A stretch of DNA of 64,000 nucleotides from Daphnia pulex. Taxonomy: Eukaryota; Arthropoda; Branchiopoda; Diplostraca; Daphniidae. A program made the position numbers and the translations under genes. This document shows positions 1 through 21,414 of this stretch, in pieces. The DNA lies in the NCBI RefSeq assembly GCF_021134715.1, contig NC_060026.1, positions 14,127,001-14,191,000 on the forward strand. Direction: 5' to 3'. The notes under the pieces were generated by a model. That model worked only from the letters and a program-made list of their open reading frames with translations. It did no database searches and was not told the DNA's origin. Every line of letters starts with the position of its first letter. Position 1 is the first letter of the stretch.

Positions 1-1968
1 TTCAGACTCCCAGTCCGAGAGTGCTGGTGAACACAGGGGTTTGGCCGTTGTTGGTTTGGTTGGCGGCATTGATGGTGTCGATGATAGAGGGGTTTTCGAT
101 GTAGAAACTGGGGTCTTTGTTGACGGGTTTACTGATCCTGTAAACGAGGCGCACAACATATGGTTGCCGACAAAAGCAGGATATTGACTGGTGCAGATCG
201 CGTTGTCCCGCACTACAACGTTAGCTTTTAGCAATGTATTTGAAATACTTCCTCCTAATGATTCAATTAATTGTTAATGTGAAACTTCAAATTATAGATT
301 TGCAGTAAATTATTTATTACCTGGAGAGATTGTTGTTCCCCATCCAGTGAGTACGGCCGAGCTGTTGGCATAAGTACTGAAAGCCCGATTAAACATAGAT
401 TTAGAGGTTATTTGCACGGATTTCTTTTTTATATTAGTTGTTGTGGATTTTGTGGTAAATTCTGTCGTTAATTTGGTCGTTATTGTTGTTGGTTTTGTTG
501 TTGCGTTTTGGGTCGTAGTTGTCATTTTGGTTGTTTGTGTTGTTTGTTTGTTTGTCGTTGTCGGATTTGTCGTCGGATTTTTAGTCGTAGTTGTTGTTTT
601 AGTTGTCATTCGGGTTGTTTGTGTTGTTGGGTTTGGCGTCGTAGTTGTCGTTTTGGTTGTTTGTGTTGTTGGTTTGTTTGACGTTGTCGGATTTGTCGTC
701 GGATTTTTAGTCGTAGTTGTTGTTTTAGTTGTTGTGTTTTGGGTCATAGATGACATTTTGGGGGTTTGTGTTGTTGGTTTGTTTGTCGTCGGATTCGTCG
801 TCGGGTTTTTGGTCGTAGTTGTTGTTTTGGTGGTTTGTGTTGTCGGTTTATTTGTCGTTGTCGTTTTTGTGGTTGGGTTTGTAGTTGCTTTAGCTGTTGT
901 GGGCTTTTCGGTCGTCATGAACTTCGTTGTTGATTTCGTTGTTGTTTTAGTAGTTGTTGTAGTCGGTTTTGCGGTCGGTTGTGTTGTAGTCGGTTGCGGT
1001 ATATCTGGAAGGGTGACAGTGGGTACACCTGTAACTGGCGATTGTAAGACTAATAGCGCCACGTCATTGTCCTGCGTCAGATTAATTACATAAGGTTAAT
1101 ACGATTTTATCAATAAGCTGCGGAATCGCCAACTAGAAAAGTGTGATGCAAGCTTACCTTGGTATTTGGGTTGAAATTTTCATGAACTATAAAGTTCATT
1201 ACTCCTACACGGACGACTCCATTGCCGCCATCCGTTGTGAGCGTGTTTAATAAAACTTTGAAGTTGATGGCATCCGTTTTATTACGACTGCCAAACAACA
1301 GAAACCAAAATAAATTTGGAAGACCATTTTTTTTTTAAATTTCAGCATAGGTTGCACGGATGATAAGCAGCAACGAACAATTGTGAGTTTCCCAGTTCAA
1401 CTTGCGATTTAAAAAGCCACACGATTCTAAAACCGACCATAAATTTAACTTAATTTGTATCCTACCCGAATAAACATTGAGCTGCAGTCAAGATGTGGGA
1501 AGGTCCAACTAAAGTTCCTTCACATAAATCGCCATTTAGCAGCAAAATAGACTGAAAAAAAAATTCATTAAGTAAAAACTAGTTAAAAATGTTTTTGAAA
1601 AAAATATTTACCATGTACGGAAATTCCCCAGCCGAAACTAGATCTCTGTTGGCATTTATCATGTTAATACGATCAGCCACTAAATTACAAAATTACATTA
1701 TCAGGTAAATATCAAAACAAATTTCGACTGATTGGTGGTAAATATGATAAACGAATTCAGATAATTTAAGCAAATTTGCATCTGCCAAGGAACATTTTTA
1801 GTCTAATACCTTCGGGAAATGAATGGGCATGCAAACCAACGATGAAGAGAAACATTACTATTGCCTATTTTCAAAAATAAAATAATGAACGATAATTACT
1901 AAAAATATAAAATTCAACACAAAAAAAAAATAAGTAAAAATTCAAAAACTAACCAAAGAAAGACGCAT
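1..1968 (-). CDS. Trypsin-like serine protease homologue (inactive), copy 1, 3' end cut by window
   Basis: Secreted S1-family pseudoprotease. Exons on the minus strand: 1954-1968, 1810-1864, 1612-1679, 1466-1551, 1158-1287, 321-1071 and 1-251 (incomplete). The protein starts MRLSL, followed by a hydrophobic signal segment (AIVMFLFIVG). The region equivalent to the usual IVGG start reads SAGEFPYM and has no Arg or Lys before it, so no tryptic activation site is seen. The His motif is TAAQC instead of TAAHC, so His57 is Gln. The Asp102 strand (DNDVALLVLQ) is kept. A Thr/Lys/Pro-rich stretch of about 170 residues follows the Asp strand and precedes the GWGTT strand. A second shorter Pro/Thr insert follows MLCASFTGSVNP. 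The exon with the catalytic Ser lies outside the window. It is transcribed away from the astacin starting at 3164. Probably non-catalytic; role unknown. Confidence 0.85.
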
Positions 1969-3163
1969 AGTGAGAAGCGAAGTTTGTCGCGAGAGTCGGG
2001 GATCCAACTGGTGGCCGTACGTATTCGATGAGTCTTTTTATTGCTATACGTAAAAAGGAATACAGTTATGTCCACACCTTTTTCGAAAAGATATCATGTT
2101 TTGTCATGCCATGTCAGAACCAAATTGTGAGATCTCACAATTGGATTGGACAGACATCATGTTGTGGACACGACGAAATGTTTTCTCATACAGAGTTGTA
2201 TTGATTTACATATAATCTATAACAATATGAGAATCTGATGTGAAGGTGGATACATTATTTCGTTTCCAGTTGCCAGAGGTGTGTCTTAAAAGGTAAATTG
2301 TCACTTACCATTGGTCGTTAGGGTGTTTTTCATTGCAAAAAGCCACTGACCCCTTCTCTGTTTGGTTGTTCACCGCTTTTAGCCTGTTTATGCTGAAATT
2401 TTAACCAATCGGCTTCGCTGAGTAAATTCCAGAATGGCCGCCTCTCTTCGGTGTAGGAATGAAGAAAACTATTGAAAAAAAAAGACACAAACAACAACAA
2501 ACTTGTGAAAGCCGGATGTCGAAAAGACCTGTTTTCTCGTCGCATCTTTATGAATATCATTATAGATACCACACCATCTGGCACTTTGTTGCATCATTTT
2601 ATATCCGATAAATAGCTCGTCGTGCGTAAACTTTTGAATTTGCCGCCCCAGTTTTGAATAGGACTTTCAAACCCATCTGCATCTAATGCCTGCTGCATTT
2701 TCGGTAATTAATGGGGTTGTACATCTGCATCGACCGAATCCGGGAGGGAATGCATGGTACAGGGCCAACAACCTGATACGAAATTTCGATCCAGATGTGG
2801 AATGGTTGTCCAAATGCTGCGATGACTAAGTGTAGCTATTCAGCGGGCTATTCAGATAAAATTTTCTACGTATTTCGGTGTGGCCTGGAATACAACGTAA
2901 TAGTATATAGACCAAAAAGTAATATATAAGCGGCTACCTAACTGGAGTGTCTCAACGCTTTGCGGGGCTGAAAGAAGATACATCATCGCTGTCAGTCCGA
3001 ATCGCAACGTAAGTACAGAGACTCGATGTGTTCTCACTACATATTTTTACTGTAATAACAAAAGTATTTCTGAAATGTATAGATTGTTTAACTACCACAA
3101 TTTATAAATTAAAGAATATGTTTAAAAATTTAATTTGAATTTTACTATTACATTTAGAGAAAA
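1969..3163. promoter_or_regulatory. Shared divergent upstream region, unit 1
   Basis: About 1.2 kb separate the start codons of pseudoprotease 1 (minus) and astacin 1 (plus). A TATA-like ATAAAAAG lies on the minus strand at 2034-2041. TATATAAG lies on the plus strand at 2923-2930. A perfect 20-bp palindrome, AATTGTGAGATCTCACAATT, lies at 2123-2142. A 5'-UTR exon of the astacin appears to end at 3008 (GTAAGT donor) and its intron ends at 3157. Short open frames here (for example 2330-2584 minus) have no support as genes. Confidence 0.6.
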
Positions 3164-19309: not shown

Positions 19310-20990
19310 ATGACCAATACCATTTCAACAATTCTGGCCATTTCCGGAGTGGCGTGTTTCTTTATTGGATCAGTCACAGCTATGCCCATCTTTAAATCTT
19401 CGTTGGAAACTCTAATCTATCGGGTACTATAAGTTGTATCAAAATTTTTGCTGAAATCAGTGACAAAATGTTCGGAAATTTATGATTTGCACAAAATTAA
19501 AAAATAAAATAAAATAATTTCCAGCATTATAGCTAAGTTATTCTTCTTATTTTCTTAAATTATATACTCAGGCCAGCACAAATTTCATCGCTGGGAAACC
19601 GCTGACTGAAGAATTGTTAAAACGAAATTTTTCCAACATAGGGAAAGGTAGAACTAAAAGCTAAAAATGTTTTCCTCGATTTCTTTCTTTTACTAATTTT
19701 TAAATCTGTAGAAATAAGAGACGAGTTCATTCCGTGGGGCAAGCAAGATCCCACACTTCACGAAGGTGACATTAAGCTTCATGGGGACAAAAATGCTATC
19801 TTGGACACCAGCTACCGTTGGCCCAAAGCACAAATTCCTTATGAAATCTCAGCTGAATACAGTATTTATACATATATTTCCGAAAAATTTAAATTTCTAA
19901 TTCTAAAAAGAAGTCAAAATAAATATTTGTACCTGGATTGCCTGCTGATAACCGTCTTTGGCTATTTGGTAACTCGATTCCAATGAAAAGCAAGCGAACA
20001 GCGTGCAACAATCGCCTTTGCTATGAGCGACTACCACGACAATACGTGCATCCGTTTCGTTCCTCGAACCTGCGAAAAGAATTATTTAACCCTTTTCAAA
20101 TCTGGAGGAGGGTATGTTACTTTTTCCTAATTATATAATTTGATTAAAACAAATATTACTATTATTGCTATTTATTTTCTTCCAAATTATTAAGTTGCTG
20201 GAGTTTCGTTGGCTTGCTTGACCAAGGAGCTCAAAAAGTAAGTCTCGATGATGGATGTGTCAAGGATTGGGCGCCAGGAGTAGTCACGCACGAACTAATG
20301 CACGCCCTTGGATTCTTCCACGAGCACACACGCCCAGATCGTGACACCTACGTGAAGATTAATTTTGACAACATTGATCCAGGTAAGTATCTACTGGCCT
20401 ACATACAGTATGTTCGACTGAAACAATCGGTGATGATCAATGAAAACCATCGTTAACAATTATTATTTGATCTGCTATATGATTGTGGTTGAATTTACGT
20501 AAATCAAGAATTTTTTAAAAAAATCAATCTATCTACATTTGCAGATCAAGCCCACAACTTCAACAAAAAATCAGAATCGGACGTGACAACTCTTGGACTT
20601 GTTTACGACTATGGTAAACAATTAGTATGTAAATCCGATTTGATGATGAACTAGAGAAAAAAGTCAAAGTTTCACGATTTCCGTTCCTTTTTTTTGTTGT
20701 TTAAATTTGTATGTGCTATAACAACACCAATTAACATTTTTAAATCAGGCTCTGTCATGCATTATGACCAATATGGTTTTGCTATCGACAACAATATTCC
20801 TACCATGATTCCACTTATTGGGAACCCAACATTGGGAAACTATAAAGGATTGACTTCGGTGTGTATAATTTGTATTTCAGGATTGATAAATTGAACCCAC
20901 TAAAAATTAAAATGTTTCAATGAATTTTCTTTTTTTTTTTAGCTGGACATCCAAAAATTGAACGCACTATATTGCTCCGCAGCCAATTAA
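19310..20990 (+). CDS. Astacin (M12A) zinc metalloprotease, copy 3
   Basis: Secreted zinc endopeptidase. Exons: 19310-19423, 19572-19647, 19712-19861, 19991-20111, 20195-20382, 20545-20613, 20749-20858, 20943-20990; 291 residues. Signal peptide [20 protein letters not shown]. Prodomain aspartate switch LHEGDIKL. Mature region begins near [17 protein letters not shown]. Zinc site [18 protein letters not shown] is nearest to the textbook astacin motif. Met-turn [10 protein letters not shown]. Terminal [10 protein letters not shown]. No domain beyond the protease. AATAAA at 21209-21214. It pairs with pseudoprotease 3 upstream and is the last gene of the array. Confidence 0.93.
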
Positions 20991-21414
20991 ACACTTGAAA
21001 GGGCGCGCGTGAGAATAATTTACATCGGTCTGTTTCACATACGAGTACCGCTTTTCTTTTTACAATTCCCTCTAGCAGTTATGATATTTCTATGGTGATC
21101 TAAAGGCCAGTTCTCTCCACAGCTAAAATAACAGCCTTTAAAAGCACATCTTTAATACGAAGTCGTTTTTTTTTGTTTGCCTGGTGATTGATTGTCTCAC
21201 ATTGTTTCAATAAAGTTTGTTCAGCATGAAAACACAGATTCTCATCCGTTTCTATACGAGCGCCCTTCTCCAAGAGTCTATTAAAAGCAATGCTGTAATA
21301 ATACACATCGCTGGTAGGTCTGCACTCGGAAGCAAACCAGTCCTGGCCCAAAAAGAAATGCCGCTACTTCTTCTAACCCTAATGTAAGAGTTAGGCAACA
21401 ACTAAAGCGAGTTC

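Follow-up and report, generated by a model that had tools for sequence, protein, structure and literature searches.

A stretch of 64,000 nucleotides of the Daphnia pulex genome (contig NC_060026.1, here C10, positions 14127001-14191000; hereafter the window) was analyzed together with the genome to which it belongs (133 Mb, 13 contigs). Its left part (1-20990) contains three direct repeats spaced about 8.5 and 7.7 kb apart. Each of these units consists of a gene coding for a protein of the S1 (trypsin-like) serine protease family on the reverse strand and a gene coding for an astacin metalloprotease on the forward strand, which diverge from a shared upstream region. The S1 start codons are located at 1968, 10435 and 18146 (steps of 8467 and 7711 bp) and those of the astacin genes at 3164, 11624 and 19310, with start-codon gaps of 1195, 1188 and 1163 bp in units 1, 2 and 3, respectively. 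Gene models were obtained with a purpose-built spliced aligner that allows GT-AG introns only, so that these junctions are present by construction. Both genes of each window unit comprise 8 exons, and the six models are free of in-frame stops. The unit 1 S1 gene extends about 320 bp past the left edge of the window and its end was read from the flanking sequence; its first short exon, up to the start codon, was located by sequence matching only. The Pfam scan of the window pairs covered unit 2, whose S1 protein matched PF00089 (Trypsin, 4.6e-32) and whose astacin matched PF01400 (Astacin, 2.1e-58).

Genome searches carried out with the Astacin and Trypsin families, two astacin proteins and three S1 proteins revealed five further head-to-head pairs, giving a total of eight pairs at six places on four contigs (Table 1). 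These additional pairs are termed unit 4, C5, C6, C10a and C1, and start codons were placed in seven of the eight pairs, with C5 as the exception. The first-pass annotation had described a divergent unit present in three tandem copies, which was correct for the layout of the window and fell short of the real extent of the family. Of 87 S1 regions, 6 were no more than 10 kb away from an astacin region, compared with 0.77 expected, and only 1 of 5000 random placements reached 6. This test included at least 147 S1 and at least 39 astacin hit clusters, with hand-entered coordinates and five guessed contig sizes, and used the matches listed, the best candidates being scored, from a Trypsin-family search that gave 184 matches. 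Nine S1 clusters located no more than 10 kb from an astacin correspond to the eight paired genes, C5 being counted twice.

Catalytic residues and inserts of the paired proteins

In the S1 proteins of units 1-3 the triad positions 57, 102 and 195 are occupied by Gln (LTAAQC), Asp (DNDVA) and Ile (GxDIGGP), replacing His57 and Ser195. Their activation site has also disappeared, with KQFNAS or NMINAN at the place where unit 4 reads NK/IVNG (a slash marks the activation point). By its motifs, the unit 4 protein is a complete trypsin (NK/IVNG, LTAAHC, DNDVA, DTCQGDSGGP). The C5 protein keeps the triad, but it reads EK/FLND and CQDMSGGP (I16F and D194M), so that the Ile16-Asp194 bridge has lost both of its residues. 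In C1, C6 and C10a (R/IIGG, LTAAHC, CVDDEGGP) only Ser195 has been lost (S195E). Three inactivation routes were thus found (units 1-3; C5; C1, C6 and C10a), and the changed copies are probably inactive. The first-pass annotation had considered the S1 partner as a dead trypsin-like protein without its catalytic residues. For the window this holds at His57 and Ser195, but not all catalytic residues have been lost because Asp102 remains, and for the family it fails in unit 4, with a complete triad, and as regards the triad in C5, which has lost residues 16 and 194 instead. The trypsin-like assignment was right, but a long Thr-rich, mucin-like insert had been overlooked.

This insert is located between the strand that follows Asp102 and the GWG motif, and the alignment with the structures 1eq9 and 2f91 breaks at the Thr-rich stretch, which places it in the linker between the two barrels. 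The linker comprises 236, 193 and 172 amino acids in units 1, 2 and 3, with 45, 46 and 41% Thr, respectively. The insert is present in each of the eight paired S1 genes, with modelled linkers of 124-397 amino acids (the C10a model may omit part of it) and Thr contents of 41-57% in seven of the partners and 28% in C5. Insert length varies widely and the S1 core is constrained, five cysteine columns being invariant across seven aligned cores. In the four of eight partners scanned with Pfam (E 0.001), the Trypsin domain was detected (unit 2, as above; unit 4, 1e-48; C6, 2.4e-32; C5, 9.1e-41) and neither a clip domain nor any other non-trypsin domain was found.

Units 1-3 carry a second insert immediately ahead of the Ser195 loop, similar in sequence to the last part of the unit 4 linker insert (PSTANPLC...ELVSLGYLFN...RANTC in unit 2, compared with PSTANPLC...LVPL..LF..). 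The inserts of units 1-4 and C5, which form clade A of the S1 tree (see below), share a module, SDLVPLSxLF, which occurs once in unit 4 and in five close copies in C5, and which has a relative within the second insert found in units 1-3. The C5 copies, with SDLVPLSNIFSSL, are arranged in tandem at a spacing of about 54 amino acids and are accompanied by a diverged sixth. The module is lacking in the S1 partners of clade B (C1, C6 and C10a), and a pattern search did not find it in ten unpaired S1 loci.

These ten unpaired S1 relatives (L035-L044) are a subset of the unpaired relatives listed, and their unpaired status rests on the genome-wide astacin searches. GDSGGP is present in all ten, His57 is intact in the eight whose model covers it (L042 and L043 are not covered), and a Thr-rich insert was found in seven (L040, L041 and L044 being without it); the L039 model has an in-frame stop. 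Predicted loss of activity affects 7/8 paired S1 proteins vs 0/10 of the unpaired relatives read, the latter judged by the Ser195 motif. A C[AS]CTC motif is common to the Thr-rich inserts of unit 4 (L013) and of the unpaired L035-L039; the models of L042, L043 and the disabled paired copies showed no such motif.

The astacins of units 1-3 have a hydrophobic N-terminus and LHEGDI in the prodomain, together with a K/NAI site, the zinc site HELMHxxGFxHEH and the Met-turn SxMHY, in agreement with the previous claim that their catalytic residues are intact. The zinc site and the Met-turn are kept in the nine astacins located in or beside pairs, and the C10a astacin also matched PF01400 (3.7e-42). 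L[HY]EGDI and the K/NAI site are present in the astacins of units 1-4 and in both C5 astacins, and the prodomain motif of the C6 astacin reads FSEGND. Among solved structures, the best sequence matches of the unit 2 astacin were 3lqb, 6ht9, 3lq0 and 1ast, and Limulus 8a28 was also matched. The D. pulex gut astacin ACN2 was considered as a paired gene and rejected, its published peptides (PMC2678069) being absent from the part of the genome examined.

Duplication history, selection and upstream regions

In both the S1 and the astacin trees unit 4 is outermost, followed by unit 1 and then by units 2 and 3. Support for this order is modest in the astacin tree (83/74, 84/75 and 88/83). Synonymous divergence (dS, S1/astacin) was 0.42/0.46, 0.31/0.33 and 0.19/0.28 for units 1-2, 1-3 and 2-3; 0.84/0.71, 0.68/0.63 and 0.61/0.60 for units 1-4, 2-4 and 3-4; and 0.64/0.67, 0.75/0.77 and 0.33/0.20 for C6-C10a, C6-C1 and C10a-C1. 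The values of both genes agree, with overlapping bootstrap intervals, in these nine comparisons (6/6 among units 1-4 and 3/3 among the B pairs), which indicates that the genes were copied as blocks. The idea that the pair was kept together through its duplications is therefore supported for units 1-4, also by the congruent topology, and it applies to the B pairs too.

The paired S1 genes constitute two clades, A (units 1-4 and C5; 87/88) and B (C1, C6 and C10a; 100/99), the latter joined with the unpaired L042 and L043 (97/94); L039 was left out of this tree due to its in-frame stop. A single origin of the paired S1 genes was rejected, the one-clade constraint costing 9.4 log units with an approximately unbiased (AU) test p of 0.028, a value that is not clean because the test was made after a first tree had been seen. 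Loss of activity requires two changes on the S1 tree, or three if C5 is counted as dead, and all the disabled sequences are paired.

The ratio of nonsynonymous to synonymous divergence (dN/dS) of the disabled S1 genes was 0.43-0.47 in units 1-3 (upper bounds 0.59-0.76) and 0.33-0.44 in C1, C6 and C10a (upper bounds 0.47-0.65). All these upper bounds are below 0.77, which indicates that the genes are under purifying selection and are not decaying freely. For the astacins the ratio was 0.42-0.55 in units 1-3 and 0.22-0.86 in the B pairs, the highest value corresponding to C10a-C1, with an interval that reaches 1.46.

Start-codon gaps range from 1163 to 1294 bp in units 1-4 and from 2223 to 3639 bp in the B pairs. 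At aligned sites, units 2 and 3 share 90% identity in the upstream region, compared with 79-83% in introns and 84-87% in coding sequence, and this high identity would fit either regulatory constraint or local conversion. Between unit 1 and units 2 or 3 the upstream identity (73-74%) is above that of introns (64-70%) but not above that of coding sequence (74-82%). Each window unit has a 20-bp palindrome at a distance of about 155-215 bp from its S1 start, and a whole-genome pattern search allowing up to two mismatches found it nowhere else. Neither unit 4 nor C5 nor any of the B pairs has its core, GAGATCTC, in the intergenic region, so that the palindrome cannot explain the pairing in general. 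Words present in smaller sets of intergenic regions (unit 2, unit 4, C5, C6 and C10a; unit 2, unit 4 and C5) were not above a first-order shuffle. Matched stretches of 853, 232 and 137 bp in the C1 and C10a intergenic regions are 74-91% alike, and the C10a and C1 pairs lie about 70 and 29 kb from contig ends; this similarity and this position point to a possible exchange between chromosome ends.

Table 1. Coordinates of the paired genes and associated elements. Positions refer to the window unless a contig is given.
Feature	Position	Strand	Evidence or remark
Unit 1 S1 homologue (pseudo-trypsin)	1..1968, rest left of window (C10:14126679-14128968)	-	spliced model, 7 exons
Unit 1 S1 exon with second insert	1..254, continues left to C10:14126932	-	spliced model
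Unit 1 S1 exon with Thr-rich mucin-like interdomain-linker insert	321..1071	-	spliced model, composition
Unit 1 shared 5' intergenic region, 1195 bp	1969..3163	.	
Unit 1 23-bp stretch with perfect palindrome AATTGTGAGATCTCACAATT	2122..2144	.	pattern search
Unit 1 astacin with prodomain, 8 exons	3164..4898	+	spliced model
Unit 2 S1 homologue, 500 aa, 8 exons; LTAAQC, DNDVA, CEQGLDIGGP	8269..10435	-	spliced model, Pfam
Unit 2 S1 exon with second insert, before Ser195 loop	8505..8866	-	
Unit 2 S1 exon with Thr-rich linker insert	8930..9551	-	
Unit 2 shared 5' intergenic region, 1188 bp	10436..11623	.	
Unit 2 near-perfect palindrome	10639..10661	.	
Unit 2 astacin, 289 aa, 8 exons	11624..13559	+	spliced model, Pfam, structure matches
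Unit 3 S1 homologue, 461 aa, 8 exons; LTAAQC, DNDVA, CQQGIDIGGP	16081..18146	-	
Unit 3 S1 exon with second insert	16319..16623	-	
Unit 3 S1 exon with Thr-rich linker insert	16687..17245	-	
Unit 3 shared 5' intergenic region, 1163 bp	18147..19309	.	
Unit 3 near-perfect palindrome	18353..18375	.	
Unit 3 astacin, 291 aa, 8 exons	19310..20990	+	
Unit 4 pair	C10:14204220-14209449		inverted, 13 kb beyond window
C5 pair	C5:2345758-2354549		head to head; second astacin tail to tail with S1 gene
C5 S1 linker module array	L019 (C5:2345001-2355000), about 1466-2117	-	
C6 pair	C6:1601376-1607105		head to head
C10a pair	C10:69782-76542		head to head
C1 pair	C1:8266551-8273376		head to head

A tandem cluster of eleven same-strand astacin genes was also observed at C10:3.075-3.119 Mb (L025-L029). 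No S1 gene of the paired type was found by tblastn around this cluster (C10:3.07-3.13 Mb), nor around the C8 and C3 astacins. A dispersed repeat, 77-94% alike, occurs between the units and elsewhere in the window (6333-6833, 14172-14697, 37035-37639 and 22258-22687), with fragments in L009 and L013; it is perhaps the remnant of a mobile element that could have aided unequal exchange. Other genes of the window encode two C1q-domain proteins (PF00386; 34381-34881, forward strand, 4.6e-17; 42288-42821, reverse strand, 1.9e-09), and a long open frame (57602-59422, forward strand) includes a helix-loop-helix DNA-binding domain (PF00010, 3.5e-16).

Interpretation of the pairing

The window units may be considered as copies of a genome-wide head-to-head family that encodes a co-secreted pair, in which the S1 half is now mostly a non-catalytic partner. 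A probability of roughly 45% is given to this reading. In the pairs other than unit 4 the S1 half looks unable to cut and yet it has been kept, and a binding or localising role is therefore proposed. With a predicted signal peptide and a long Thr-rich mucin-like linker in the S1 half, and a putative inhibitory prodomain of its own in the short astacin half, both proteins would most likely be produced in the same secretory cells and act at the same extracellular place. The S1 half may originally have been a catalytically active, mucin-type trypsin that could cleave the pro-astacin at its tryptic site; the unit 4 protein could still do so, and the unit 4 pair would fit an activator and its target. 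In most pairs, loss of catalysis would have left a non-catalytic, probably O-glycosylated partner that could hold, localise or shield the astacin or its substrate. The mucin-like linker would provide solubility, spacing or anchoring in a secreted layer, and for clade A the best candidate for a contact site is the SDLVPLSxLF module. In a more ambitious version, on which we would not wager, crustacean astacins have repeatedly been given a linked mucin-bearing pseudo-trypsin, which served first as activator, lost catalysis by different mutations and was kept as a docking partner, the dock in clade A being SDLVPLSxLF.

Many S1 genes of arthropod genomes lack both a working triad and a known partner, and this genome points to a candidate partner eight times over. 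The intact sister unit 4 and the differently inactivated copies constitute a natural comparison series, and SDLVPLSxLF is a defined peptide module. If the proposal is true, the reason why pseudo-proteases are kept becomes directly testable in a laboratory animal.

Several observations weigh against a functional pair. Among the matches listed, about 30 of the 39 astacin hit clusters lie more than 10 kb from any S1 hit, and the ten unpaired S1 relatives described above exist, so that neither half needs the link and linkage is not obligatory. In the seven pairs with both start codons placed, these are 1.16-3.6 kb apart, a start-codon distance that would be wide for a classical bidirectional promoter, and no word of 8, 9 or 10 bases is common to all eight intergenic regions. 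The S1 and astacin trees place the C5 pair differently, and the dS of the astacin is higher than that of the S1 gene in the four C5 comparisons (S1/astacin 0.88/1.58, 0.86/1.04, 0.80/1.14 and 0.53/0.94 with units 1, 2, 3 and 4), with intervals that overlap, barely in the case of unit 4. Pairing needs two changes on the S1 tree and three on the astacin tree, gain and loss cannot be told apart on these trees, and an unpaired C3 gene falls inside clade B of the astacin tree. A statistical link between pairing and inactivation was also not significant (independent contrasts, p 0.5, three pairs), only 2-3 tree changes being available.

The strongest alternative is passive hitch-hiking, in which chance neighbours, each useful alone, would have been copied by segmental duplication, in tandem on C10 and between chromosome ends for the pairs at C10:70 kb and C1:8.27 Mb. 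This is a genuine competitor and accounts for much of the pairing: the dS of both genes agrees within blocks, the likeness of the C1 and C10a intergenic DNA indicates that DNA blocks moved, both pairs are close to contig ends, and triad-less S1 genes are common in arthropods, 137 of the 269 S1 genes reported for Tenebrio having a conserved triad (PMC11172050). However, with paired S1 genes in two clades and unpaired relatives between them (AU test above), the chance neighbourhood would have to be old and repeatedly lost, or to have originated on two occasions with the same orientation. One block copy explains the C5 pair poorly, and the intergenic DNA of units 2 and 3 is more conserved than their introns, though local conversion could do that. 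Hitch-hiking as the whole explanation is a serious possibility, with the odds leaning against it.

A structural role of the S1 protein, as a mucin or matrix component (of gut lining, cuticle or egg) built on a trypsin scaffold, with the astacin merely co-regulated and no contact between them, is rather unlikely. The Thr content and length of the linkers, and the variation of the insert beside a constrained core, would be expected from such a protein, but the purifying selection on the S1 core, its five invariant cysteine columns and the R/IIGG activation site kept in clade B, unneeded by a mere scaffold, argue against it. A decoy or inhibitor role, in which the disabled S1 protein or its insert would be bound and cut by the astacin, or would compete for the activator of the pro-astacin and limit its activity, is suggested by the Drosophila sex-peptide network, where inactive S1 homologues have been discussed as protecting processing targets by competition (PMC3894160), and by the clade A module not found in the ten unpaired loci, but it appears quite improbable given that Pfam finds only trypsin-type domains in the four partners scanned and that the B-clade partners are without the module.

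Comparison with known protease systems

No description of an S1-astacin gene pair was found among the titles and abstract openings listed from the open-licence literature. The head-to-head S1-astacin arrangement appears to be new, and it is built from known kinds of parts. The short secreted astacins (Astacin, PDB 1ast/6ht9; ProAstacin, 3lq0; Limulus, 8a28) have the same EGD prodomain, zinc site and Met-turn, and the paired Daphnia genes differ from them by adjoining an S1 gene. Limulus pro-astacin is activated primarily at K48-N49, a site similar to K/NAI in the astacins of units 1-4 and C5, and its zinc is blocked by the EGD motif (PMC9629494). Classical bidirectional-promoter pairs are likewise divergent genes around one upstream region, but their transcription starts are less than 1 kb apart, whereas the Daphnia pairs were measured by start codons (1.16-3.6 kb).

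Arthropod serine protease homologues (SPHs), such as the clip-SPHs (PMC7580898) and those of the sex-peptide network (PMC3894160), share the S1 fold, have lost catalytic residues and are retained by selection, and the fly seminal fluid contains functional S1 homologues with inactivating changes (PMC3894160). The Daphnia partners differ from them by the long Thr-rich insert inside the S1 domain and by the astacin-linked gene, and the clip domain of the clip-SPHs was not found in the four of eight partners scanned. In Drosophila seminal fluid the astacin CG11864 depends on the trypsin seminase for what is presumed to be the cleavage of its pro-peptide (PMC3257295). Like the Daphnia pairs, this system comprises a trypsin-family protein and an astacin, and in the fly both act in one pathway. 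Seminase is predicted to be active, whereas seven of the eight Daphnia S1 partners look inactive, with a mucin-like insert and a gene located head to head with that of the astacin.

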